Below, one piece after another: positions 2,545 to 46,685 of a stretch of 64,000 nt of DNA (positions within the stretch are counted from its first letter, which is position 1; each line of letters starts with the position of its first letter). A program made the translations under genes and the position numbers. This stretch comes from a virus. Under the pieces are notes generated by a model that did not search any database, was not told where the DNA came from, and was given only the letters and a program-made list of their open reading frames with translations. The DNA is taken from IMG/VR virus record IMGVR_UViG_3300017971_000006, positions 62,001-126,000 of that record, one strand, 5' to 3'.

Positions 2545-3878
2545 TGCCCGTACTCCTTACGCCTGGTGAAGCTGCCTCTCAGGAGGAGACTGCAGCGCGT
2601 ATCAGCGCCGCAGCTAACGCTCTAGCGGCTAGGAAGGCAAAAGCCAACATACGCTCCAGGGTAGCGGAGGCTAGGAAGATGGAGGCTACCATCTCTGGGT
2701 TTGGTCCTCAGGCGGGTAGAGCTGCCGCTCTCATGGACCCTGAGATGATAAGGGAGCGCAGAGAGATGCTTCTAGAGGGCGGCCCTGAGATGTACCATGA
2801 CCTCCCTGAGTACGAGCGCCTAACCCAGTTCGGCTCCTCTGTGACTCCAGAGGCTTACGAGCTAGCAGCTAAGCAAGCATCTATCGCCTTGTACGGCAGG
2901 CAGCTGGGTGAGTCCCTTGCGCGCAGCATGCACAAAGAGGCTGGTATGGGAGGTGTAGGCGGCCTCATAAGCAAGGGAAAGAAGACTCTTATAGGTCTCG
3001 GGGAGGACCTGGCTGGGAAGCTTAAGAGGGCTCCCAGTCCTGGAGCCTCTGTGTCGGGTGCTGCGCGCAGAGCAGCTCCTAGCCATGTTCCTAACGCGAG
3101 CCGGGAGATTATTCCTGACTACAGGAAGACATGGACTGTACGGCCTATCACTGCCGCAGATACTCCTATACCCAGCGGGGGTGCCCGCGCCTCGGCTGCT
3201 AAGGTGGCTCCTAGAAGGACGGTACTAGAGACTCCGACACAGGCTTCCCCGGCAGGTGGTGGACCGTACAGGCAGGCCGCGGTACCCCCCTCGTCTGTAC
3301 CTGCGCCGCCGGCGGCAGCGGCCACCTTACCCTCTCCTGGTGTGTCTCCCAGCCCAGGCTCACAGGCGCGCCTTAGTGGGGGAGCAGGGTTTGCTAAGGA
3401 CCCTGTCCCGTCTAGAGGATTATCTCCGGCACAGAAAGCAGAGGCAATGTCTCCCTGGGAGGCTGAAGGGCGGAATATAAAGGCTCAGAGTGCGGCAGGT
3501 AGGGAGGCTATGGCGGCTAGAGCTACCGGTAGGTCTCCTGCTTCTGCATCCCCCGCAGAGCTGGACAAGATGACGGCGGAGGCCAACCAGCTTATGGGGG
3601 AGGCTGGTGGAGTACTGGGGGATGTTAGAGAGGGCGTAGCCGCACTACCGAGGCCGGCTGTAGCACGTCCTAGCTCAAAGCCCTTCATCGGTACGGGCGG
3701 TAAGCTAGCTCTTACGGGGTTGGCGGGAATGGGGCTTCTTGGAGCGGGTGCGATAGCTAGAGGCGGGGCACAGGCGGCCTCTCCCTATATACGGTCTGGT
3801 GTGGGTCCTCAGGAGACGTACGCTAACCCGCACGCCGGTCTAGTTCACTCTCCGAGCCAGTACGGGTACGTCTACTAG
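2544..3878 (+). CDS. Ala/Pro/Gly-rich protein with LxKxA-type motif, probable internal virion protein
   Basis: This 444-residue protein has three parts. The first (1-140) is helical and charged. The second (about 160-345) is long, disordered and rich in Ala, Pro, Ser and Gly. The third carries a hydrophobic Gly/Ala segment (LALTGLAGMGLLGAGAIA, about 394-411) and a Tyr-rich tail. Residues 125-133 read LARSMHKEA, the motif that recurs in six other genes here. Similar mixtures of disorder and glycine-rich hydrophobic stretches occur in phage internal or ejection proteins, but that is inference. It ends in a 4-base convergent overlap with a minus-strand gene. Confidence 0.5.
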   Translation: MPVLLTPGEAASQEETAARISAAANALAARKAKANIRSRVAEARKMEATISGFGPQAGRAAALMDPEMIRERREMLLEGGPEMYHDLPEYERLTQFGSSVTPEAYELAAKQASIALYGRQLGESLARSMHKEAGMGGVGGLISKGKKTLIGLGEDLAGKLKRAPSPGASVSGAARRAAPSHVPNASREIIPDYRKTWTVRPITAADTPIPSGGARASAAKVAPRRTVLETPTQASPAGGGPYRQAAVPPSSVPAPPAAAATLPSPGVSPSPGSQARLSGGAGFAKDPVPSRGLSPAQKAEAMSPWEAEGRNIKAQSAAGREAMAARATGRSPASASPAELDKMTAEANQLMGEAGGVLGDVREGVAALPRPAVARPSSKPFIGTGGKLALTGLAGMGLLGAGAIARGGAQAASPYIRSGVGPQETYANPHAGLVHSPSQYGYVY

Positions 3879-5489: not shown

Positions 5490-6314
5490 CTAGGATGGGC
5501 TAGGAGTCCAGCGGATGCCTTTGGTTGGCACCCAGATATCGCTAGTGTCGCTTCGGGCGATGAAGGCCGAGCTAACCCATGCGTGCCCTTGAAAACCCCA
5601 CCCAAGACCCCAGGAGTTTCGTAGGTAGAACTCTAGCTCGCCGTTACGCGTGCGCACTCCGGTGAGTATCATGGCGTGCCTGCCCTTGTTGACGGCCTCG
5701 GGCTCTAGGACCTTGTCCTCGCCCCTGTACGCCATGAACTCGTTACCAACGGGGGTGCCGAACACTACTGGATGGTCTGTTCGGATGGCTATCTCTATCT
5801 CCTTTAGCCTCTGGTCGTCACTGGATGTGAGGGTGTAGGCGCCCTCTAGTCGGTGATTGCTGGCCATGGTGTAGAGGTCTGCCTCGGGGAAGGCGTAAAC
5901 CATGCTCTGGTCGTACTGGTAGTACTTCTCCTCTACAGTACCTATCACTGTTAGCTGGTGCGCTGCTGCTCTGTTGTATGTTCCTCCATCCACATCTAGC
6001 GCCCCGTGTAGGATGCGGGAGATGTTGTAGAGGAACTGACGGCTGAGCTGCTCCACGGCGTCACCCTGGGAGAGTCCGTCAAGAATCTCCAGTGAGTCGC
6101 ACCAGGCGTTTGCTACGCACGAGCCTTGTCCACCCTGGTTGCTGATGGGTGTGTACTCTGGGATGATGTGCGTGTTGGAGGCGGTCTTCACTAGGCGGCC
6201 TAGCGTGCTTGAAATCGAGGAGAACATCAGCTTTAGCGGTAGCTTTACAGGGTCTCCGTTGGCATCAACAGCAACCATGTCTTTGTCCTCTAAACAGTAA
6301 CCTACGTTGTGCAT
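5490..6314 (-). CDS. Papain-like (C1A) cysteine protease
   Basis: This gene encodes 274 residues from ATG 6314, which has AAGGA six bases upstream; ATG 6320 overlaps the previous stop but has no spacing to that site. The C1A signature is complete. Residues around NQGGQGSCVANAW supply the oxyanion Gln60 and nucleophile Cys66, GRHAMILTGV supplies His213, and LRNSWGLGWGFQGHAW supplies Asn233. No secretion signal or clear inhibitory propeptide is seen. The roughly 45 residues before the catalytic domain are short. It lies in a minus-strand run with a lipoprotein and a beta-helix spike. It could process phage or host proteins; the target is unknown. Confidence 0.85.
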   Translation of the reverse strand: MHNVGYCLEDKDMVAVDANGDPVKLPLKLMFSSISSTLGRLVKTASNTHIIPEYTPISNQGGQGSCVANAWCDSLEILDGLSQGDAVEQLSRQFLYNISRILHGALDVDGGTYNRAAAHQLTVIGTVEEKYYQYDQSMVYAFPEADLYTMASNHRLEGAYTLTSSDDQRLKEIEIAIRTDHPVVFGTPVGNEFMAYRGEDKVLEPEAVNKGRHAMILTGVRTRNGELEFYLRNSWGLGWGFQGHAWVSSAFIARSDTSDIWVPTKGIRWTPSPS

Positions 6315-8797: not shown

Positions 8798-9586
8798 GTG
8801 GGACAGACAAAGCCAGACATCAGTGACTTCAAAGCCAAGGTAAAGCAGGGCGACAAGTACAAGGGAAAGCAAGGAGCCCTCAAGGCCATACACAGGTTCA
8901 AGAGCTGGGGAGACGAGGAGAGAGAGGCTGCCAGGAAGTGGCTGAACGCTCACTACCGGCGTTTAGAGCGCCTCGAGGGAGCGTCTAGTGCTCCGGAGAG
9001 CAAGAAGCAGGATAAGCCGGCTAAGTCTCCAAGAGGACGCAGAGCTAAGAAGGCGGCAGCGGAGACCGCTACTGCGAGTGCTCCAGCTCCCAAGGCTAAG
9101 AGAGGTAGAAAGCCGCAGGCCAAGGCCCCCGTAAGCAAAGAGACTGCTGCTAGCGTCCGTGCAGACATCACAAAGGTCCTAGCAGAGATGAACGTCCCCC
9201 TAGAGGACTTCGTGACTCTTGCAAAAGCGGAGAAGCACCTTGCTGTGCTCGAGCGCCTTCAGGGGCTCGTCGACGGGTCAGGGAGCAAGGAGCTTCGTAG
9301 TGGCCTCGACTGCCTGGTCAAGGAGCTCATGAGCAGCCTAAGTAAGGTCGAGCCTCAGCTGCCAGAGGAGACAAAGTCTGTGTCCCCCTCGAATGGTAAG
9401 AGGCCTAGGCGCAAGAGGTTGGCCGAGAAGGCGGCAGCCAAGGATGCTCCGAAGGCAAACCCTCCAGAGAAGGAGCCCGAGAAGGAGCCCGAGAAGGAGG
9501 AGAGCTCCCCCACAAATGGAGGTCTTACGCCAGCGCTCCCCGTCCTCAAGGACCTAGACCCTCCGAGCCCCACAGCGACTCTCTAG
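8798..9586 (+). CDS. Lys/Ala-rich AT-hook protein, histone H1-like
   Basis: This 262-residue protein starts at GTG 8798. A basic N-terminal domain of about 60 residues (KQGDKYKGKQGALKAIHRF) is followed by a Lys/Ala/Pro-rich linker with AT-hook-like cores SPRGRRAKK (about 68-76) and KRGRKPQAK (about 89-97). A helical domain (about 105-185) follows, then a second basic stretch (NGKRPRRKRLAEKAAAK) and an EKEPEKEPEKEE repeat. This composition fits a DNA-compacting or nucleoid-associated protein. Tight leader hairpins suggest controlled translation, possibly by the protein itself. It is the only clear gene of this type here. Binding is inferred. Confidence 0.6.
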   Translation: MGQTKPDISDFKAKVKQGDKYKGKQGALKAIHRFKSWGDEEREAARKWLNAHYRRLERLEGASSAPESKKQDKPAKSPRGRRAKKAAAETATASAPAPKAKRGRKPQAKAPVSKETAASVRADITKVLAEMNVPLEDFVTLAKAEKHLAVLERLQGLVDGSGSKELRSGLDCLVKELMSSLSKVEPQLPEETKSVSPSNGKRPRRKRLAEKAAAKDAPKANPPEKEPEKEPEKEESSPTNGGLTPALPVLKDLDPPSPTATL

Positions 9587-10026
9587 CTGACCCCCTTCTT
9601 GGGGCGCCACAAGATTCCGATGCTCTCCTTGTCCTGCGCCAAGGAGGTTTTCCCCAGGATGACCACGTCCCCGTGGTCTTTCTTAGGTATGCTCCAGCAG
9701 AGGGTCCCGTCTGGGGTCTCTAGGAGAGCTCGGAGACGTGTGGGCTGCTCCTCTATTAGCAGCAAACCGCATGCGTCTGTAAGCTTGACGAAGGCGCAAA
9801 GAGCCTCGTTCCAGTTGCTCTCATGGGTCAGCTCCATGATGCAGGGGTGGTTTATCATCGAGCCGTCAGACGACTTTACGGGTCTCTCAGGCCAGGAGAT
9901 AGCTAGCGGCGTTAGCTTTTTCTCATCCTTCCATCTACGCCGCATTACGGTAAGTCCGTTCTCAGCCATTGACCTCATGTAGTCTAGCGAGAACAAGGGA
10001 GGTTCTGTGTCTATAGGTGAGCGCAT
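9583..10026 (-). CDS. Hypothetical protein
   Basis: This gene encodes 147 residues, with AAAGG six bases before the ATG. The sequence is a mixed alpha/beta globular chain with no cysteine motif or membrane segment (for example LTDACGLLLIEEQPTRLRAL). The family is not recognised. It is convergent with the AT-hook gene (4-base overlap) and divergent from the next plus-strand gene with overlapping start codons, so the two starts sit on opposite strands of the same bases. Confidence 0.5.
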   Translation of the reverse strand: MRSPIDTEPPLFSLDYMRSMAENGLTVMRRRWKDEKKLTPLAISWPERPVKSSDGSMINHPCIMELTHESNWNEALCAFVKLTDACGLLLIEEQPTRLRALLETPDGTLCWSIPKKDHGDVVILGKTSLAQDKESIGILWRPKKGVS

Positions 10027-10336
10027 GATGGCCTTTCGTAATGGGCTGATGACGTTCCTTCCTAAGATAAAGAAGGTTGCCTACCTGACGTCAGTCTCTA
10101 TCTTACCTGGGCTTGACGGTACGTACACCAGGTCATTCGTTTTCAAGGCTGAGTGGGAGAAGCCTACGAAGGGGGAGTACTGCAAGAAGTTCACGGTGGC
10201 AACCGTGTTCGGACGGAACCTACGCTCTATAAACCCGTTACCAGTTAAAAGACCGTGCGATGTTCGTGACGAGATAATCAGAGACATTCTAAACAGACGT
10301 CTACGAGGAGTACAAGATGGGCAAGGGAAGCTCTAG
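10025..10336 (+). CDS. Hypothetical basic protein
   Basis: The protein has 103 residues from ATG 10025, with AGGTG just upstream; a GTG at 10007 is less likely because it overlaps the divergent gene. The sequence is basic and beta-rich (TYTRSFVFKAEWEKPTKGEY), ending in a helix with many arginines (DVRDEIIRDILNRRLRG). No family is recognised. It overlaps the next gene by 20 bases and begins a run of plus-strand small genes to 13.9 kb. Confidence 0.45.
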   Translation: MMAFRNGLMTFLPKIKKVAYLTSVSILPGLDGTYTRSFVFKAEWEKPTKGEYCKKFTVATVFGRNLRSINPLPVKRPCDVRDEIIRDILNRRLRGVQDGQGKL

Positions 10337-10553
10337 AAGACCGGCGCAAATATCTAATGAAGAGTGGGATAAGAGGTGGGAAGCCATCGACTGGGGCTCT
10401 AGATACACCTGCCGCACCGCCACTCCCTGTGATGTTTGCGGTGACACGGCGGAGGTAGATAGGTTCGGACACCCATGCGATGAGAGCAACCTCCGCGTTC
10501 TAGGGTTTTACTGTAGAGCGTGCTGGACCAAGCTACAAGGAGATAGACCGTGA
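10317..10553 (+). CDS. Small zinc-ribbon protein
   Basis: This 78-residue protein has two cysteine pairs, CDVC (about 39-42) and, after a 26-residue spacer, CRAC (about 69-72). A further Cys/His set lies between them (GHPCDE). That layout fits a treble-clef or zinc-ribbon fold. The N-terminus is basic and contains NEEWDKRWEAIDWG. It overlaps the next GTG start by 4 bases. It could bind nucleic acid or protein; function is unknown. Confidence 0.5.
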   Translation: MGKGSSRRPAQISNEEWDKRWEAIDWGSRYTCRTATPCDVCGDTAEVDRFGHPCDESNLRVLGFYCRACWTKLQGDRP

Positions 10554-10738
10554 ACGAAAAGCCGACGCTGGAGAAATGTAGAGATCTGAATCTGTGGTGT
10601 AAGTGGGACGGGGATAAGGGGCAGTATGTTGCATGTGACGCCTCGGACCCTCACGCAAGAGAGGACATGAAGAGGCTAGATATGGTTCTTCAGGGAAAGG
10701 AGCCCCTCATCCTCTGCAGCGGTAAAGGAGCTAGGTAG
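10550..10738 (+). CDS. Hypothetical 62-residue protein
   Basis: GTG 10550 overlaps the previous stop (GTGA). The sequence is polar with three cysteines (LEKCRDLNLWCKWDGDKGQY and later LILCSG), which do not form clear pairs. It ends directly at the start of the dNMP kinase gene. It carries an AAAGGAG used by that kinase. No family is recognised. Confidence 0.45.
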   Translation: MNEKPTLEKCRDLNLWCKWDGDKGQYVACDASDPHAREDMKRLDMVLQGKEPLILCSGKGAR

Positions 10739-11380
10739 ATGATTATAGGTGTGTGCGGGTTTACGAAGGACAAGAACGGGAACGTCGGGAGCGCCCATGC
10801 GGGAAAGGACACCGTTGCCGACTACCTAGTCTACAAGTACGGGTTCATCAAGATATCCCTCGGAGACGAGATTAAGCGCATCTGCCTGAGGCTGTGGGAA
10901 TTTGATGAGGACCAGCTGTGGGGAGGGTTGAAGGAGGAGCCGGATACACGGTATCTGGTTAACGGGGAGTACCTAACCCCCAGACACGCCATGCAGCAGC
11001 TAGGTACAGATGTTGCGCGTTGCATAGACCCGGATGTGTGGACGCGTATTACATTAAGGGTTGCCAGAGATGTTCTGGATAGTGGGTACGGCTACAGTAG
11101 TGTAAAAGGGATTAACCGTCTTGGGTGGCTTGGAGAGCTAGTAAAAGGTGTTGTCATCCCAGACGTTCGATTCCCCAACGAAGCGCAGGCTATCCTGGAG
11201 GCCGGTGGGAGATTGTGGGGTGTGCTCCGTACTCTAGATACTGTTGTGGCTGGCTCTACGCATGCCAGTGAGAAGTCTCAAGGTCTAGGAGACCTTGTAG
11301 GTCACTATCTTGTAAACGACGGAACGATAGCGCAGCTACACGGGCGTGTGGACAGTGTGATGGAGGCTATGCATGGATGA
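10739..11380 (+). CDS. Deoxynucleoside monophosphate kinase
   Basis: This 213-residue protein has a P-loop near the N-terminus: IIGVCGF, an insertion, then AHAGKDTVADYL with Gly-Lys at 22-23. It is followed by the LGDEIK segment and the QQLGTDVARCIDPDVWTRIT stretch typical of T4 gp1-like phage dNMP kinases, then a VIPDVRFPNEA motif with the conserved arginine. These enzymes phosphorylate dNMPs for phage DNA synthesis. It is the only nucleotide-metabolism gene in the window and sits among small unknown genes. A good AAAGGAG precedes the ATG. Confidence 0.8.
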   Translation: MIIGVCGFTKDKNGNVGSAHAGKDTVADYLVYKYGFIKISLGDEIKRICLRLWEFDEDQLWGGLKEEPDTRYLVNGEYLTPRHAMQQLGTDVARCIDPDVWTRITLRVARDVLDSGYGYSSVKGINRLGWLGELVKGVVIPDVRFPNEAQAILEAGGRLWGVLRTLDTVVAGSTHASEKSQGLGDLVGHYLVNDGTIAQLHGRVDSVMEAMHG

Positions 11381-11600
11381 GCTACCGTATGAAGATGACC
11401 CCGCTACGTTCGATTCCCTACTTGAGGGTCTCAACGTGTTCAACATGTGCCGAAACCCTGTGGTGCGTGTAGCCCCAGGTAACACATCTGCAGTTCTAGT
11501 AAGTTCGGGCACTCTTCTGCCGTACATGGAGAGGAAGCTCCGGAGGCTAGGATGGACGCAACCAACGGAGTACGAAGGGTGGTGGTGCCTCTATGTGTGA
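11373..11600 (+). CDS. Small protein, first of two tandem paralogs
   Basis: This gene encodes 75 residues, overlapping the kinase end by 8 bases. From residue 17 it aligns with the next gene: both have LxxGLNV, a Pro-x(2)-R segment, a Gly/Pro-centred middle, M-x(2,5)-LGW, and a final aromatic run (WWCLYV here, CWYIYL there). This copy has lost or never had the acidic N-terminal extension of the other. Function is unknown. Confidence 0.5.
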   Translation: MDELPYEDDPATFDSLLEGLNVFNMCRNPVVRVAPGNTSAVLVSSGTLLPYMERKLRRLGWTQPTEYEGWWCLYV

Positions 11601-11898
11601 TATCAACGGTGATGATACTGAGAAGGACATTGCCCAACAGGCAGCTATTGCTCTCGCAGAGGCGGAAGAGGAGGACGAGCACAACGAGCCGGAGGCTGAG
11701 AAAGAGAGGTTTGTGAGGCTCCATGCCGGTCTAAATGTTTTAAGCGCATACCCTCAGCCATTTATCCGGCTGAGCAGCAACTTCCGTGGAGCGTACGCGG
11801 GTTGCGCCGGTATCTACCGCCCAGAGACTATTGTACGCATGAGAGACCTGGGGTGGAGGTGGTCGGACAACCACAGCTGCTGGTACATCTACCTATGA
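11593..11898 (+). CDS. Small protein, second of two tandem paralogs
   Basis: This gene encodes 101 residues. A 45-residue acidic helix (EEEDEHNEPEAEKERFV) precedes the domain shared with the previous gene: LHAGLNVLSAYPQPFIRL, then YRPETIVRMRDLGWRW and CWYIYL. The pair looks like a local duplication with divergence. It overlaps its neighbour by 8 bases. The compact aromatic-rich domain of about 58 residues is not one I recognise. Confidence 0.5.
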   Translation: MCDINGDDTEKDIAQQAAIALAEAEEEDEHNEPEAEKERFVRLHAGLNVLSAYPQPFIRLSSNFRGAYAGCAGIYRPETIVRMRDLGWRWSDNHSCWYIYL

Positions 11899-11905
11899 GG
11901 GAGCT

Positions 11906-12319
11906 ATGAAAACAAAGCTTGGGGTAACAACACGGGAGGTTACATCAGATGCGCTACGCCCTGCAGGCCCGGACGACGAGTGCTACTACTGTCGAAGAAA
12001 GCTGGGGAGTATGCACAAGTTCTCTTGTGTCCTTGTGACTGTCAAGAGGACGTACCAGGTTTTCCTTTACAACGAGAATGTAGGAACCTGGACTGTCGAA
12101 GAGCCTGCATCGTGGGACCGCACCCTTAGGGAGTTCTTTAGGAACGGGTCATCGTGGTGTGCTAACAATATGATGACACAAGGCATGCTAGAGCTAGACG
12201 ACGGCGTAGAGCTACCGTTCGACGACGTAGAGTCTGACTGCTGTACTATTTGTGATGCTGTGTCGGTGCTGCCTATCGGTGCTAGTGGTCCTGGGATAGA
12301 GGCACTAGGGGACAGCTAG
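11906..12319 (+). CDS. Hypothetical protein with cysteine pairs
   Basis: The protein has 137 residues, with GGGAGCT before the ATG. An N-terminal CYYC pair (about 27-30) is followed by a lone Cys near 41, a beta-rich segment (RTYQVFLYNENVGTWTVEEP), Cys in SSWCANN, and a C-terminal CCTIC cluster. The cysteines could bind zinc, but the arrangement is not a textbook ribbon. No family is recognised. Confidence 0.45.
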   Translation: MKTKLGVTTREVTSDALRPAGPDDECYYCRRKLGSMHKFSCVLVTVKRTYQVFLYNENVGTWTVEEPASWDRTLREFFRNGSSWCANNMMTQGMLELDDGVELPFDDVESDCCTICDAVSVLPIGASGPGIEALGDS

Positions 12320-12327
12320 GAGCTACA

Positions 12328-12344
12328 TGGTAAACTTCTCTACA
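12328..12344 (+). promoter_or_regulatory. Extended -10-like element TGG-TAAACT before an ATG without Shine-Dalgarno
   Basis: TGG-TAAACT (12328-12336) is followed by TCTCTAC and ATG 12344. Only an AGGAG some 28 bases upstream is present, too far to act. The same TCTCTACATG context occurs at 48994. Together with three other sites it suggests leaderless transcription. Confidence 0.35.
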
Positions 12345-12721
12345 TGGCAGACATCACTGTAACTCAACAGCAGTATGAGGCGTTGATATCTCTCGCTAGA
12401 CAGGGAGCTACAACGGCAGAGAAGCAGAGGCTACTAGAGGAGTACCTAAAGAGGATAGAGGAGGCTAACGGTATAGTCCGTGACTTTGTGTGGGTGCAGT
12501 GGCAGGAGCTAGACCAGCCGGTTCCTGCCTACGCCCGCTTTCCGGAGACGTGGCCGCCAGAGATGCGTAGGTACATCGAGCTAGTTACTAGAAGGGTAGC
12601 TAGGGCTGATGTAGACGCCGTTCTGGCGGCTCACGCAAAACGTCCTACAAACGTTCTGTGTACCAGAGACCCTGCCGCAACGTTGGGCTGGACTGCGGTA
12701 GACGACTTCTTCGTGCTATGA
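12344..12721 (+). CDS. Hypothetical protein
   Basis: This gene encodes 125 residues. The first half is helical (QQYEALISLARQGATTAEKQ, then EEYLKRIEEANGIVRDF). The rest is mixed, ending in a short aromatic tail (AVDDFFVL). It has no cysteine pair, membrane segment or catalytic signature. The stop overlaps the next ATG (ATGA). This general pattern is frequent in phage small proteins but I cannot name the family. Confidence 0.5.
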   Translation: MADITVTQQQYEALISLARQGATTAEKQRLLEEYLKRIEEANGIVRDFVWVQWQELDQPVPAYARFPETWPPEMRRYIELVTRRVARADVDAVLAAHAKRPTNVLCTRDPAATLGWTAVDDFFVL

Positions 12722-17609: not shown

Positions 17610-17868
17610 GACAGTAATAGACGCAGTACCAATCCAGCTGATTGCGATGACCTACACAGACGCTGCAGGTAACGTATCATCCACGAAGATAGGGGTGATG
17701 GTCGGTGACAAGCTCTTAGAGGACCCGGGTGGGGAGCAGTGGGCGACCAAGCTTAAGACGCTTATGGACTGGGTGAAGAAGGGTGTGCAGGAGAAGCTGA
17801 ACGCTCAAAAGGAGGTTACCGCTCCTAAGGAGGATAAGGTGAACATTCTCGTGGAGAGTAAGGACTGA
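17533..17868 (+). CDS. Hypothetical protein
   Basis: The protein has 111 residues. The first 28 lie over the end of the previous gene in another frame. The rest reads as a folded segment, VIDAVPIQLIAMTYTDAAGN and the strand STKIGVMVGDKLL, followed by an amphipathic helix (ATKLKTLMDWVKKGVQEKLN). No later in-frame ATG is available, so the overlap seems real. It shares its last base with the next gene's start. Confidence 0.45.
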   Translation: MQRAQGVRIPPGQLRDQEEKRKGPPKTVIDAVPIQLIAMTYTDAAGNVSSTKIGVMVGDKLLEDPGGEQWATKLKTLMDWVKKGVQEKLNAQKEVTAPKEDKVNILVESKD

Positions 17869-18149
17869 TGCTCTTCTGGGAAGCTATTAGGGAGGTAGTG
17901 CTCAATGGTCGCGTTGCTACTAGACCACCATGGAGAGAGCGCTTCATCTTCCAAGTAGAAACAGCCCAGCTGTTCCCTCGTGACCCTACGATTCAGCCAA
18001 AGGGAGGCGGTAAGCCGCAACCTTTTCTGTGCCAGGGCAAGGGGTCTGGCGTGGAGGTGCAGTACACCCCGTGGTCTCCTACTCAGGAGGATATGAGGGC
18101 AATAGACTGGGAGCTCTTGGACGCTAAGGCTGTAAGAGAGAAGAACTAG
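17868..18149 (+). CDS. Tad2-like (DUF2829) protein, candidate Thoeris anti-defence
   Basis: This 93-residue protein fits the DUF2829 pattern. The N-terminus is FWEAIREVVLNGRVATRPPW, then a short strand (RFIFQV). The middle is variable. The C-terminal hallmark is TPWSPTQEDMRAIDWELL, matching the family's W-x-P-x-Q-x-DM-x(2)-DWE signature. Characterised members (Tad2) bind the cyclic ADP-ribose signal of Thoeris immunity and stop cell suicide. Many DUF2829 proteins are untested, so anti-defence activity is inferred. The insert between strand and hallmark is longer than usual. It sits in a dense accessory operon next to a co-chaperonin gene. Confidence 0.7.
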   Translation: MLFWEAIREVVLNGRVATRPPWRERFIFQVETAQLFPRDPTIQPKGGGKPQPFLCQGKGSGVEVQYTPWSPTQEDMRAIDWELLDAKAVREKN

Positions 18150-18156
18150 GGTGACC

Positions 18157-18765
18157 ATGAAGAAGGAAGCTGAGTTCACCGTTAAACGGGTCAAGTGCGG
18201 GTGCGGCGCATGCGACAACCTTATTCTTACCAATGGGAGGGGATATGGTGCTCCATTCATCAAACCTGAGGATATTGGGTTCGACTTAGAGGAGGGAGCA
18301 GCAGTACGCGTTACATTTGAGAAGCTCGTACCGGGTGCCCCCCGCTGTTCTGTAAATCCTCTGTCTGAGATGAGGGTCGTAGGCTTTCACCGCAAAAGGC
18401 AGGTTGAGCGCACATCCGATAGAGCGTCTACAACGTTTACTCCGGGGGATACCGTTAGCTACCTAGAGGTTGCCTCCAAGACGGGGTCGTTCATGGTGCG
18501 TGTTGACGAGGACGACCTCGACAAGCACGTGCTAGAGCCACTTAACCGTTGGGGGCACACCGTTACGCACAAAGGACAGAACGATGAGGTTGCTGCACGA
18601 TTGGCTGCTGATAAAGCTAGAGCCCGCCAAGCAGAGGAGCGGGAGTATTATCATCCCGGACCCGGAGAGAGAACCCTTGAGGGTAGGGAGTGTTATCTCG
18701 GCGGGCCCAGGGATGAGGAGCGCAGCCGGTTCGAGAAGGCCCTTAGGAGTATTCGTAGGGGATAG
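18157..18765 (+). CDS. Hypothetical protein overlapping a co-chaperonin gene
   Basis: ATG 18157 gives 202 residues; GTG 18151 is an alternative. The N-terminus has a cysteine cluster (VKRVKCGCGACDN). A beta-rich domain follows (GAAVRVTFEKLVPGAPRCSV), then an acidic segment and a charged helical end (DKARARQAEEREYYHPGPGE). Its last 182 bases are also read in another frame by the GroES-like gene, so its C-terminus is either constrained or partly non-functional. The family is unknown. Confidence 0.5.
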   Translation: MKKEAEFTVKRVKCGCGACDNLILTNGRGYGAPFIKPEDIGFDLEEGAAVRVTFEKLVPGAPRCSVNPLSEMRVVGFHRKRQVERTSDRASTTFTPGDTVSYLEVASKTGSFMVRVDEDDLDKHVLEPLNRWGHTVTHKGQNDEVAARLAADKARARQAEEREYYHPGPGERTLEGRECYLGGPRDEERSRFEKALRSIRRG

Positions 18766-33271: not shown

Positions 33272-34051
33272 GTGGAACAGGAGCTGATAGACCTCGTACG
33301 TGAGATGCACAAGGAGGCTGCCTCTAAGGGCTGTATGCAGGTAGCTAATGCTCGTGCTGGAAGAAGACCTATGCGTGTAGCCACTCTCCTTAGCAAGGAG
33401 AAGGACGGCACGCTGTACAAGCAGACGGAGGCCATCAAGAAGGCCTCAAGAGCCAACCCTTTGGTGCTGCCAGGTAGCTTGGAGTTCAGGCGTCCCAAGG
33501 GACCTGTAAGTGCGGACAAGACTCCGGTGGCGAAAAGCACAGAGCCCGACGTAGCTACAGATGAGCTGGACCAGCGCAACTTCACAGCGCTGGGAGACCT
33601 GGAGAAGGGCGGAGAGGCCGCCATCACATACTCTGAGGCGGAAGAGGCACTTAAGAAGCTACGAAAGCTAGAGAAGGAGAAGGTCACCAAAGAGGATGTA
33701 GGACGGGCCGCAGCTACGGGGGCTATTGTAGGTCCTGCATCTGCTCTCGTGGGTGGACTGGCCAGCGGAGCGGTACCTAAGGCGTTCATGGGTGAGGCGG
33801 GTAAGGGAGGCTATCTGCACGCACCTAGAGCTGGTTCTTGGGAAAAGCTAAAGGGTGTGGCATCAGGTTCTAAGAATGTTGGCAGGGCTTTGACAGCTGC
33901 TGCCCTTGGTGCCGGAACGGTTAGCGCTATAGGGCCCCTAGTGGCGCGTGCTCTAGCAAAGCGCTCGCAGGAAGCCAAGCTGCGCGATTACATCGAGAAC
34001 AGGCCTAGCACCAAGCTTCGCCAAGACATCACGAAGATGACAGGACTCTGA
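33272..34051 (+). CDS. Virion-like protein with N-terminal LxKxA-type motif and Gly/Ala hydrophobic segments
   Basis: GTG 33272 gives 259 residues. The first 16 form a helix ending in LVREMHKEA (8-16), the motif shared with six other genes. A basic middle and an acidic helix (SEAEEALKKLRKLEKEKVTK) follow. Then come two Gly/Ala-rich hydrophobic stretches (AATGAIVGPASALVGGLASG and ALTAAALGAGTVSAIGPLVA) that could cross a membrane. A basic end closes the chain. This combination suggests an internal or ejection protein. It starts a five-gene block with the same motif. Confidence 0.5.
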   Translation: MEQELIDLVREMHKEAASKGCMQVANARAGRRPMRVATLLSKEKDGTLYKQTEAIKKASRANPLVLPGSLEFRRPKGPVSADKTPVAKSTEPDVATDELDQRNFTALGDLEKGGEAAITYSEAEEALKKLRKLEKEKVTKEDVGRAAATGAIVGPASALVGGLASGAVPKAFMGEAGKGGYLHAPRAGSWEKLKGVASGSKNVGRALTAAALGAGTVSAIGPLVARALAKRSQEAKLRDYIENRPSTKLRQDITKMTGL

Positions 34052-34052
34052 T

Positions 34053-34844
34053 ATGCCACAGTGGATACACAACAGGGCGGAGCACCTTCTAGCGCGCAAC
34101 CCAAGCATGCGAAAGAGCACAGCTTTCGCAATTGCTACACAGCAAAGCCACAGCCTGGGGAAAACTCCGAAGGGCTACGGTACGTCGGAGGGTAAGCGAG
34201 AGGCTAAGGCCAAATACGACGAGCCCAAGAAGGAGTACAAGAAGGCCGCCAACCCAGGAGACCTCGACAGTCCGAAGCTTAAGGAGAGCGCCGTACTTCC
34301 TGAGTTTCTAGACAAGCCCAGGCGTGGTGAGCGTCTTGAGCCTGGGAGCGAAGAGCACATAAAGAACCGTGCTTTTGGGAGGGCAGTTGGTGGCGGTGGT
34401 GTACTCGGTCTTGGTTTTGGGGGATCTCTGGGGGGAGTAGGGCTAGGGTACCTTGCAAGCCGCTTACACCCCCGAGCTGCAGTCCCTGGCGCCATCTTGG
34501 GTACGGGTCTTGGTATGGGTGCTGGTATGGCCGCAGGAACAGCTGCTATGTATCCCTCCAAGCTGAAGGAGCAGAGGGAGATGGCTTCTGCGTGGAATGA
34601 GCAGGTCAAGCGCATGCTGGAGATGGCTGCTGCGTCGAGGGAGCAGCGCAGTCGTATGCGTAAGAAGGCCGAGGCCATGGGACTCCTGAAGGAGGCGGCG
34701 TCGAGCCCCGCAGCGATGCTAGCAGCCACCAAAAGGGTAGGTCTGCCCCGTGCCGCGGTTCACCCTGGCAAGGGCATAGGGACCCTAGCTAAGCCAAAGG
34801 GACCGGGCTCCGGCCACGTCTTGCCCGGCCTAGCCGCCAGCTGA
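34053..34844 (+). CDS. Virion-like protein with conserved basic N-terminal module
   Basis: The gene encodes 263 residues. The N-terminal 65 residues (PQWIHNRAEHLLARNPSMRK, then STAFAIATQQSHSLGKTPKG and a YGTSEGKREAKAKY segment) look like a module I associate with other large phage genomes. The centre holds Gly-rich hydrophobic stretches (GVLGLGFGGSLGGVGLGYLA and GAILGTGLGMGAGMAAGTAA). Near the C-terminus is AMGLLKEA (208-215), the shared motif. An internal virion or membrane-active role is inferred from composition. It ends in a basic, Gly-rich tail. Confidence 0.5.
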   Translation: MPQWIHNRAEHLLARNPSMRKSTAFAIATQQSHSLGKTPKGYGTSEGKREAKAKYDEPKKEYKKAANPGDLDSPKLKESAVLPEFLDKPRRGERLEPGSEEHIKNRAFGRAVGGGGVLGLGFGGSLGGVGLGYLASRLHPRAAVPGAILGTGLGMGAGMAAGTAAMYPSKLKEQREMASAWNEQVKRMLEMAAASREQRSRMRKKAEAMGLLKEAASSPAAMLAATKRVGLPRAAVHPGKGIGTLAKPKGPGSGHVLPGLAAS

Positions 34845-34864
34845 AAAACTCCAGGCGTACGCGC

Positions 34865-34892
34865 TATAAGATGGGGGAAGGAGGACATAGTG
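34865..34892 (+). promoter_or_regulatory. TATAAG -10-like element and Shine-Dalgarno before GTG 34890
   Basis: TATAAG (34865-34870) lies 20 bases upstream of GTG 34890, with AAGGAGG between. Upstream GAAAAACTCC is a weak -35 candidate. This region follows a gene end at 34844, so a separate promoter is plausible. Confidence 0.3.
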
Positions 34893-35549
34893 ACCTGTCC
34901 CATCTTTAGTAGCTATGCAAAGGAAGTTAGGAGAGACCTGCAGAAGAATGCAGGTCTGTATCTATGTGAACATCTAGGGGAGGAGGTGGAAGATTTGGAG
35001 TCTCAGGCGAAGGAGGAAGCCTGTACTCCTGCGGTGTCCCGCCTTAGAGCTTTCTACCTAGTGCAGGTGGCTTGCCGCACGTACTGCGTCGAGACGATGC
35101 GAAGGGTGTACACACAGCTTGTCATGGAGCAGCGCAGTGAGGAGAGCCTAGTGCTCCTTGCTCGCCAGGAGGAGATGTCTTGGAAGGGGCTGACCAGAGT
35201 GATAGAGGCAGCCAAGAGAGTGAAGGAGGAGATAGAGATAGAGATTACGGGAGTACATATGGACGGGCAGGCCATACTGCCTATGCTGAGCGCGGAGCTT
35301 AAGGTTGCGTCCGCTGTGCTTACAGGCATATCAGAGGCGGCAGCTGTGGTACGAGAGGAGCTCAACCACGAGGATGTACGTCCCAACCTGCAGAAGGCCG
35401 TACGTAAGATTGTAGGCGTGGAGCGTGCGTCAGACGTCGCTATAACGCAACGAGTGAGCAACCTATCCGTGATGCTCCACATTACGGCGGGAAGCACCGT
35501 ATTCCCGACAGGCACCTCCCGCTGGGACGTTGTGGGTGGGGTTTGGTAG
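34890..35549 (+). CDS. Helical protein with N-terminal LxKxA-type motif
   Basis: GTG 34890 gives 219 residues. Residues 13-21 read VRRDLQKNA, matching the shared [LM]-x-K-x-A motif. The rest is mostly alpha-helical (VSRLRAFYLVQVACRTYCVE, then LTRVIEAAKRVKEEIEIEIT), with a beta-rich end (VSNLSVMLHITAGSTVFPTG). There are cysteines but no paired ribbon. A virion or scaffold-like role is suggested by the motif and its neighbours. Confidence 0.45.
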   Translation: MTCPIFSSYAKEVRRDLQKNAGLYLCEHLGEEVEDLESQAKEEACTPAVSRLRAFYLVQVACRTYCVETMRRVYTQLVMEQRSEESLVLLARQEEMSWKGLTRVIEAAKRVKEEIEIEITGVHMDGQAILPMLSAELKVASAVLTGISEAAAVVREELNHEDVRPNLQKAVRKIVGVERASDVAITQRVSNLSVMLHITAGSTVFPTGTSRWDVVGGVW

Positions 35550-35588
35550 CCGGAGCAAAAAGGTGGAATAAGAGGGTGATGCCGGCCT

Positions 35589-35624
35589 AGGTGCTATAGA
35601 GCAGCACCTGCTAGACTACAGTCA
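35589..35624 (+). promoter_or_regulatory. Hairpin and TGC-TAGACT element before an ATG without Shine-Dalgarno
   Basis: AGGTGCT (35589-35595) pairs with AGCACCT (35603-35609). Immediately after is TGC-TAGACT, with TAGACT at 35612-35617, then ACAGTC and ATG 35624. The six-base gap equals that at 4489 and 46203. The hairpin overlaps where RNA polymerase or a repressor would sit, so it may be an operator. Confidence 0.4.
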
Positions 35625-35980
35625 TGGTTACTGTAGTAGGTAAGTCGGCGTATCAACGTTTTGAAGAAGGTTTTGCCGAGGCTTTCTTGAAGAAGGAAGC
35701 TCAGGACAAGCCACCGGAGACAAACGAGGACGACACCGTACAGGGGGCTCAAGCAGTAAATGCAGAGGACCCTGGAGAGGTCGGCGAAGGCGACGAATGG
35801 GATGGGGATGACCCGGAGCAGTACAGCCCGGATGTTAAGGACAGAGCAGCGGACGCCAGAGACGGTGTTCTAAGCCGGTCTTTTGTAGCTCCTCCTTCCC
35901 CTAAAGGGCACTTCAAGAAGGTGTCGCACGCTCAGCTGACCATGCAGGATACGGTGAAGCTCCTCTGTAACAGGAGGTAA
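35624..35980 (+). CDS. Acidic protein with N-terminal LxKxA-type motif
   Basis: This gene encodes 118 residues. The N-terminal helix (YQRFEEGFAEAFLKKEAQD) carries FAEAFLKKEA (17-26). The remainder is acidic and probably disordered (VQGAQAVNAEDPGEVGEGDE), then more ordered toward the end (FKKVSHAQLTMQDTVKLLCN). It lies one base before the sigma-like gene and may be translated together with it. No known domain is seen. Confidence 0.45.
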   Translation: MVTVVGKSAYQRFEEGFAEAFLKKEAQDKPPETNEDDTVQGAQAVNAEDPGEVGEGDEWDGDDPEQYSPDVKDRAADARDGVLSRSFVAPPSPKGHFKKVSHAQLTMQDTVKLLCNRR

Positions 35981-35981
35981 C

Positions 35982-36878
35982 ATGATTAAGCTCTCAGAGC
36001 TGGAGCTAGAGAAGATTGCGTTTCCTAAGCCCGCCGCCCAGGCGGACTTTGAAGCCTGGAAACAATGGCACAAGGAGCCGGAGGGGCAAAGGAAGAAGGA
36101 GCTTCTGAACGCGTCGCTGGATAGGTTCAACCCGGCTATCCAGCGTAACCTGTCCATGTGGGGGAACGCCCCGCAGGTCAACAAGGATGCCTTGAGGCTA
36201 GACCTCTTGGACGCCACGGTGCACGCCCATAAAACATGGGACCCTAGGAAGGCGGAGCTGAACACGTGGGTCAACACGAACCACAAGAAGGTTCTTCGCA
36301 AGATTGAGCTGCACTCTAATCTTGCGTACACACCATCGGACCGTAGCCGCCTTATCGGACCGTACCAGAGGGCGCACAACCAGCTGCAGGAGAGGCTAGG
36401 GGAGTCCCCGACTGACTCGCAGATGGCGGACTTCATGGGTCAGCCGGAGAAGATTGTACGAAAGCTTCGGATGGACACCAGCCGTAAGGACATATCGGGT
36501 AGTGCCTTCGCAGAGGACCCGATAGAGCTGATGGCGCATCAGCACAGCCCTCTACCACTGGATGTTCTCAGCTTGATGGACCAGCAGCCGGATAAGCCGG
36601 AGAACGATGTGTTCTTCAAGCCTCCTACATTCCGGCCGCAGTCACCCGCAGAGAGGAGGGCGTACGACAGGGAGCTGGCTCAGAGCCAGCGCACCCGAGA
36701 GGTGTACAACTCATTGAGGGGTATCAAGATGGTTCAGAAGCCTGACGGTACCTTCGAGGTCAGTAAGCTAAAGAGGCTCCCATCGAAGGGGGCTGTAGCG
36801 AAGAAGCTAGGTGTGAGTCCCTCTACAGTGTCTCGCGCTGTAGGGAGGATACAAGGAGTAATCAAGGAGCAAACGTAA
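35982..36878 (+). CDS. Sigma70-like RNA polymerase sigma factor
   Basis: This 298-residue protein has a sigma-like order. Residues 45-112 resemble region 2 (LRLDLLDATVHAHKTWDPRK, then AELNTWVNTNHKKVLRKI). Residues 120-165 resemble region 3 (RAHNQLQERLGESPTDSQMA). Residues 265-295 are a helix-turn-helix like region 4 (SKGAVAKKLGVSPSTVSRAV). A Pro-rich linker separates them. The N-terminus LELEKIA (7-13) fits the virion-associated motif of its neighbours. It could redirect host polymerase to phage promoters, perhaps after delivery with the DNA; that is inference. A strong terminator follows. Confidence 0.7.
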   Translation: MIKLSELELEKIAFPKPAAQADFEAWKQWHKEPEGQRKKELLNASLDRFNPAIQRNLSMWGNAPQVNKDALRLDLLDATVHAHKTWDPRKAELNTWVNTNHKKVLRKIELHSNLAYTPSDRSRLIGPYQRAHNQLQERLGESPTDSQMADFMGQPEKIVRKLRMDTSRKDISGSAFAEDPIELMAHQHSPLPLDVLSLMDQQPDKPENDVFFKPPTFRPQSPAERRAYDRELAQSQRTREVYNSLRGIKMVQKPDGTFEVSKLKRLPSKGAVAKKLGVSPSTVSRAVGRIQGVIKEQT

Positions 36879-38470: not shown

Positions 38471-39169
38471 ATGAAAAGAGCAGCGAGAAGGTGGGTGCCG
38501 GCATTCGTGAAGAGGGCTAATAAAAGGTTCATTGTGGGAGTAGACGAGGTTGGTTACGGAGCGTGGGCAGGTCCGCTTGTGGTGGCAGCCGCAGCGTACC
38601 CGCTTAACATGGCGTGGCCAGAGCATCTAGGAGAGGAGAACATACTAGACTCTAAGAGGCTGAAGACGCACAAAAGAAGGATGTCAGTTCTTCCTGTGCT
38701 GGAGCAGCTGTGCACGTTCAGTAAGATTGTAGAGATACCTGCATGGCTGTTAGATAGGCTTGGAGCTGCTAACGCGTTGTGCGGGGCGATACACATGGCC
38801 GCGTACGCGTGCCTGGAGGAGCTGGGAGAGGCAGTAGTTCTTGTAGACGGTAACCCTGCCAGGAACGCGGATAGGTCCTTTACCTACATCACCAAGGGAG
38901 ATACAAAGTCACATGCGATAGCTGCGGCTAGCGTCATGGCAAAGGTTCATCGCGACCTTCTCATGAAGGAGCTTGACGGGGAGTATCCTGGATACGGGTT
39001 CGGCAAGCACGTTGGGTACGGGACTCCTATGCACAAGGAGGCGCTTGAGCGCCTTGGAGTGTGTAAGCTTCATAGGAGAAGCTACAGACCTATAAAGGAG
39101 ATGCTAGATGGCAACCAAGGCGGAGAGAATTCAGGAGCTGATAGCGGCGACAACGGCATGGAGGGCTAA
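38471..39169 (+). CDS. rnhB: Ribonuclease HII
   Basis: This 232-residue protein matches RNase HII, which cleaves RNA in RNA-DNA hybrids. FIVGVDEVGYGAWAGPLVVA gives the catalytic pair Asp25-Glu26. ILDSKRL (58-64) follows, then VVLVDGNPA with Asp126, and KGDTKSHAIAAASVMAKVHR with Asp144. PGYGFGKHVGYGTPMH and HRRSY complete the family pattern. The usual GRG after the catalytic pair reads GYG. No standard Shine-Dalgarno precedes ATG 38471. A Gly/Asn/Asp-rich tail of about 20 residues is added. The gene may help remove primers or R-loops during phage replication. Confidence 0.9.
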   Translation: MKRAARRWVPAFVKRANKRFIVGVDEVGYGAWAGPLVVAAAAYPLNMAWPEHLGEENILDSKRLKTHKRRMSVLPVLEQLCTFSKIVEIPAWLLDRLGAANALCGAIHMAAYACLEELGEAVVLVDGNPARNADRSFTYITKGDTKSHAIAAASVMAKVHRDLLMKELDGEYPGYGFGKHVGYGTPMHKEALERLGVCKLHRRSYRPIKEMLDGNQGGENSGADSGDNGMEG

Positions 39170-46203: not shown

Positions 46204-46685
46204 TGGACGGTGAGACCCTACAGCTAGTCAGGTCGCTACACGACTACATGTCTAAGGTGGCCAAGAGCCTGCCTATTCCGAAGTTCTTAACGAGGGGCGT
46301 CGCATCGGTAGCCAAACCAAAGACAATAGGCAGGGTTCTGCCCCCAACAAGGGCGGGTCAAAGGTTGGCGTCAGGGGCTCCCGCCCTTCCTTCGCACATG
46401 ACCCGCGCCAAGAAGCTGATGGAGGACCCCAGCTTTAGGAGAGCAGCGGAGGCAGCCACGGGCGGGGAGATAAGGGACCCGACAGCAATGCTTGCCATGG
46501 GTCTGCGGGGAGCCGGAGGGGACACCACCGGAGCTCTAACCGCCATGAACCGGATTGCCATGATACCAAAGCAGACGGTGTCGCAGGCTGGGTCATCCAC
46601 GATGCAGGCGGCTGAGTCGCAGATGGCCCAGAGGGCAGCCAAGCTTCGCGCAGCTAGGCAGGCGCAGCTAGCAGCCGGAGCTTAG
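46203..46685 (+). CDS. Virion-like protein with N-terminal LxKxA-type motif
   Basis: This gene encodes 160 residues. The N-terminal helix LQLVRSLHDYMSKVAKS has LHDYMSKVA (12-20) matching the shared motif, followed by a basic Pro-containing stretch. The rest is Ala/Gly/Met-rich and helical (DPSFRRAAEAATGGEIRDPT, then QAAESQMAQRAAKLRAARQA). The same motif in a distant block at 33-37 kb suggests a common processing or packaging route. The start lacks a Shine-Dalgarno and lies 6 bases after a -10-like element. Confidence 0.5.
   Translation: MDGETLQLVRSLHDYMSKVAKSLPIPKFLTRGVASVAKPKTIGRVLPPTRAGQRLASGAPALPSHMTRAKKLMEDPSFRRAAEAATGGEIRDPTAMLAMGLRGAGGDTTGALTAMNRIAMIPKQTVSQAGSSTMQAAESQMAQRAAKLRAARQAQLAAGA

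Follow-up and report, generated by a model that had tools for sequence, protein, structure and literature searches.

In phage T4, head maturation depends on a prohead protease, gp21, that cleaves at LxE, fragments the core proteins and removes targeting propeptides of 10-20 residues from internal proteins (PMC5694885). The large phages SPN3US and phiKZ process many internal proteins with the prohead proteases gp245 and gp175, respectively, which recognize AxE and SxE, and in these phages the protease cleaves itself and several sites are found per propeptide (PMC5694885, PMC10052503). Phage multisubunit RNA polymerases described so far lack sigma homologues, which are instead encoded by jumbo phages without such a polymerase (PMC13282480). 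Here we describe a short motif, [LM]xKxA, which in a large group of poorly studied phages marks proteins of the virus head, apparently as the site where the phage's own protease trims them, and which is also present on a sigma-70-type factor, suggesting that this factor could be carried in the virion.

The analyzed window comprises 64,000 nucleotides, positions 62001-126000 of the 178,559-base virus record IMGVR_UViG_3300017971_000006. A sequence-only reading of this window had noticed [LM]xKxA in seven genes, five of them neighbours, and had proposed, by analogy to the T4 capsid-targeting sequences, a packaging or protease-recognition signal that would tie a sigma factor to the virion. All seven motifs were confirmed at the residues given there. 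The features are as follows:

2928..2942 (+), internal motif MHKEA (residues 129-133) of the 2544-3878 gene, unresolved
33272..34051 (+), gene of a 259-aa Gly/Ala-containing protein, first of the tagged cassette
33305..33319 (+), motif MHKEA (residues 12-16) of the 33272-34051 gene, an N-terminal tag followed by ASKG...RAGRRPM
34053..34844 (+), gene of a 263-aa protein with a conserved MPxWIHxRAxHLxAxNPSM N-terminal domain and internal K-x-A sites
34683..34697 (+), internal motif LLKEA-ASSP (residues 211-215) of the 34053 gene
34938..34952 (+), LQKNA (residues 17-21) of the 34890 gene, probably a chance match
35687..35701 (+), motif LKKEA (residues 22-26) of the 35624-35980 gene
35982..36878 (+), sigma-70-type factor gene (Sigma70_r3, PF04539, E=8.5e-08; HTH near the C-terminus)
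36006..36020 (+), motif LEKIA (residues 9-13) of the sigma factor
46248..46262 (+), motif MSKVA (residues 16-20) of the 46203-46685 gene, a plausible tag

Our gene caller starts the fourth gene at 34995, but homologues support the GTG at 34890 used in the sequence-only reading. The list of seven is incomplete, since [LM]xKxA also occurs in the genes at 5490(-), 15376, 18157, 20344, 24003, 29902 and 38471. When each protein of the window was shuffled, the motif was only modestly above chance: 13 genes carry it anywhere (8.9 expected, P=0.08), 5 of 82 called genes (18157, 33272, 35624, 35982 and 46203) carry it within the first 26 residues (1.33 expected, P=0.009), and 4 carry it in the five-gene block (1.14 expected, P=0.004). 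On the window alone, the observation would thus be only suggestive, and a chance occurrence of a short motif in Lys/Ala-rich helical proteins had to be considered.

The rest of the genome and related phages gave a much stronger signal. Upstream of the window lies a head gene block that includes a 978-aa prohead protease interrupted by an intein (LAGLIDADG), a 287-aa protein in the scaffold position, and a capsid protein that corresponds to phrog_2522 major head protein, as do all 28 homologues, and has an HK97 fold. In this block, [LM]xKxA occurs 20 times compared to 6.4 expected (z 5.8), whereas in 120 other genes it occurs 12 times compared to 12.7 expected. Direct searches for relatives of the sigma factor and of the 36931 protein in viral contigs and cultured phages found nothing, and Pfam and PHROGs gave nothing useful for most proteins of the flagged block; relatives were found only through the protease and capsid protein, which together brought in 117 loci from uncultured viruses. 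Without any prior pattern, the most enriched residue triplet among 1,161 non-redundant proteins from these loci is K.AS (821 versus 150 expected), followed by EK.A (854 versus 196), KTA (618 versus 122) and, a little lower, L.K.A.

Substitution controls showed that the enrichment is specific. [LM].K.A is 4.19-fold and [LM].K.AS 13-fold enriched, whereas R (0.97), E (1.05) or D (1.00) in place of K, G in place of A (0.98) and the reversed motif (1.07) show no enrichment; S in place of A reaches 1.74. Twelve control stretches from the same genomes show no N-terminal excess (13 versus 10.7 expected), although a weak overall excess remains (44 versus 28.5) and a few of their proteins look tagged. 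Taking one protein per family still leaves 69 versus 29 expected (maximum 40) in the head regions, while the enrichment in the wider sigma region becomes modest (12.9 families versus 6.7). Together with composition-preserving shuffles and conservation in homologues, these controls refute chance for the set, but it remains likely for the 34890 copy and possible for those of 2544 and 46203.

The motif is nearly invariant in the N-arm of the major capsid protein, which reads GK(E/D)K(I/L)A in nearly all relatives, with the K invariant and the A nearly so. The protease carries FEK(T/V/N)A(A/S) at residues 28-32 and further copies towards its C-terminus. In the predicted model, residues 24-34 and 272-348, which hold several of these sites, have confidence below 50, although one site (525 in the relative locus L115) lies in a predicted helix. 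The protein between the protease and capsid genes carries 5 to 9 copies in G000, Salmonella phage Arash and Vibrio phage D69. Motif density peaks in the first 30 residues, and around N-terminal sites the preferred residues are L/M/F at P5, K at P3, T/Q/I/L at P2, A at P1 and S/A at P1′.

In 17 relatives with a sigma homologue, the genes between the 29902-like protein and the sigma factor carry the motif within 50 residues of the N-terminus in 49 of 100 cases (9.2 expected, maximum 16), in contrast to 10 of the other 222 proteins of the same stretches (13.0 expected). Homologues keep the motif at the same place for 33272, 35624 and the sigma factor, so that these three copies are individually confirmed. 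Homologues of 33272 have it in front of the same (S/A)(R/K)xGRRxM segment, as LxKxA in loci L150, L151, L152, L153, L162 and L164, LVKNA in L165, MFKDA in L163 and KLGAS in L173. Equivalents of 35624, encoded just upstream of sigma, carry LxKxA before a TNE(D/S/A)- or NE(D/N)-like segment in L161-L166, a variant segment in L173, and FLKTGA in L175. The 34053 protein, with homologues in seven sigma-block loci plus L042 and L123 (E down to 3e-41), belongs to a family with many internal K-x-A sites, including a comparable VKEAATSP in L161. In contrast, homologues of 34890 at the same place in the block lack the motif, indicating that this copy is probably coincidental. No homologue of 2544 was detected in 20 relatives and only two marginal ones of 46203, whose matches begin after the motif, so that neither copy is settled.

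The sigma homologues are only 24-32% identical to the window's protein. Fifteen of 18 match region 3 (PF04539) and one matches region 4, while region 2 was recognized only by eye. K-x-A is kept upstream of region 2 in 17 of 18 and K.A[AS] in 14 of 18 (1.6 expected, maximum 6 in 1,000 shuffles); the eighteenth homologue has LEKISA. This conservation of the motif while the surrounding sequence varies argues against common descent, i.e., duplication of one ancestral N-terminus without a present shared function, as do the enrichment in head regions with one protein per family and the presence of the motif inside proteins, in the capsid protein and in the protease. Cassette genes are neighbours and some share an AFxDELxKIA N-terminus across different proteins, but we regard this explanation as very unlikely.

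Five homologues of the protease match the head maturation protease family phrog_18299, and viral structural matches include gp19 of Bacillus phage G (E 1.7e-09) and several annotated prohead proteases (E 1e-5 to 1e-3). T4 gp21 is the top PDB match, but a weak one (Foldseek E 0.08), and profile alignments (hhalign) of the protease and capsid protein to T4 gp21 and gp23 were negative. An HH-x-NK segment and the S of an SMG segment are invariant.

As a positive control, the same test was applied to T4, where [LI].E occurs 46 times compared to 22.8 expected in gp67, 68, 21, 22, 23 and 24, and 26 times compared to 20.2 in five other virion and packaging proteins. The distribution of K-x-A is thus what a prohead-protease motif looks like. 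Among cultured relatives, K-x-A is similarly enriched in Arash (38 versus 5.7 expected) and D69 (36 versus 5.3), with none in eight other Arash proteins.

The most likely explanation, in which we have good though not full confidence, is that [LMF]xK[ITLV]A-[SA] is the recognition and cleavage site of the prohead protease in this phage group, with the cut most likely after the alanine. In internal proteins, the motif ends a short amphipathic stretch, often AFxDELxKIA in relatives, which probably directs the protein into the growing prohead and is then clipped off; in the scaffold-position protein it is repeated, so the scaffold can be chopped up. Cleavage, the exact cut and presence in the virion are inferred, and targeting is inferred from position only. 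The main rival is an uncut docking helix that binds the scaffold, capsid protein or protease and stays on the mature protein. The N-terminal placement in an amphipathic stretch and the restriction to head and cassette proteins fit docking as well as cleavage, and a pure binding motif would show much the same enrichment. However, specificity lies in K, A and a small following residue, as at a scissile site, the motif is repeated in the scaffold-position protein and occurs in the protease itself, and the known cleavage motif of T4 shows the same distribution, which makes docking alone unlikely. The packaging or protease-recognition signal proposed in the sequence-only reading is supported, with the exceptions noted above for 34890, 2544 and 46203.

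The flagged block would thus be a cassette of internal proteins, whose last member, the sigma-70-type factor, would be packaged and delivered with the DNA to start phage transcription. The genome also encodes a fused beta-beta′ RNA polymerase of about 2,476 aa, which is present in all 20 relatives searched. We asked whether this polymerase carries the same tag, but no consistent N-terminal K-x-A was found in the 20 relatives. A delivered sigma factor could direct either host or phage polymerase to early promoters at the moment of infection. This reading remains tentative. A tagged, hence possibly packaged, sigma factor in a phage with its own polymerase would be new, and in the literature searched we found no report of a sigma factor in a virion, of a K-x-A prohead motif or on phage Arash. 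The motif provides a sequence-only way to list which proteins of an uncultured phage might go into the head, including many of unknown function that may act in the host on entry, and makes the idea of a virion-delivered sigma factor directly testable.

Compared to T4, the protease, multi-site scaffold-position protein and capsid protein are encoded in the same order as genes 21-22-23, short N-terminal tags are found on internal proteins, and the motif is enriched in the corresponding proteins. In contrast to T4, the motif is K-x-A(S/A) instead of (L/I)-x-E: [LM].E.A is not enriched, and [LI].E reaches only z 2.0 in Arash and D69 head proteins compared to z 13-15 for [LMIFV].K.A. Moreover, the enzyme has a long C-terminal region with its own sites and often inteins, and no sequence similarity to gp21 was detected. 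The motif also differs from the AxE and SxE of SPN3US and phiKZ, and most SPN3US propeptides are about 100 residues or longer, whereas the tags described here mostly end within 30. In phage G, gp19 has eight K-x-A sites and the head region shows a weaker enrichment (K.A[AS] 14 versus 3.9 expected), but its capsid protein gp27 has no K-x-A. Thus, the system resembles T4-type head maturation but apparently with a new recognition sequence, which extends across a broad phage group including cultured Salmonella and Vibrio phages.

The prohead protease gene (positions 5254-8187 of L007, a locus lying upstream of the window) contains a LAGLIDADG intein, which is inserted right after the conserved SMG serine motif. 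Several relatives have longer protease ORFs that may also hold inteins. In one subgroup (loci L040, L041 and L042) the protease ORF is longer (801 aa), and one scanned alignment member, probably from this subgroup, carries an inorganic pyrophosphatase domain (PF18823, E 2.8e-30). An intein-like insertion was also observed in a fused beta-beta' RNA polymerase of about 2,476 aa, which is encoded at positions 2019-9449 of L194 (the start of the virus genome, G000), and a homologous ORF of 2,065-2,674 aa is present in 20 of 20 relatives.

Two genes within the window showed further notable features:

34053-34844, gene with an N-terminal domain, MPxWIHxRAxHLxAxNPSMxKSxAFAIATQQSH...PKxYGT, that is strongly conserved in relatives but of unknown function

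38471-39169, ribonuclease HII gene (PF01351, E 2.3e-27) located inside the virion gene region, with an unrelated MHKEA match

Moreover, a few genes in the control regions carry clear N-terminal tags of the AFxDELxKIA type or similar and perhaps represent further internal virion proteins encoded far from the head genes:

L185 (control region), 1648-1893 and 17739-18626

L187 (control region), 12107-12607

L180 (control region), 9064-12334

K-x-A enrichment was also detected in the head proteins of Bacillus phage G (positions 1-30000), where K.A[AS] occurs 14 times against 3.9 expected. The gp19 protease of phage G has eight K-x-A sites, whereas its capsid protein has none.
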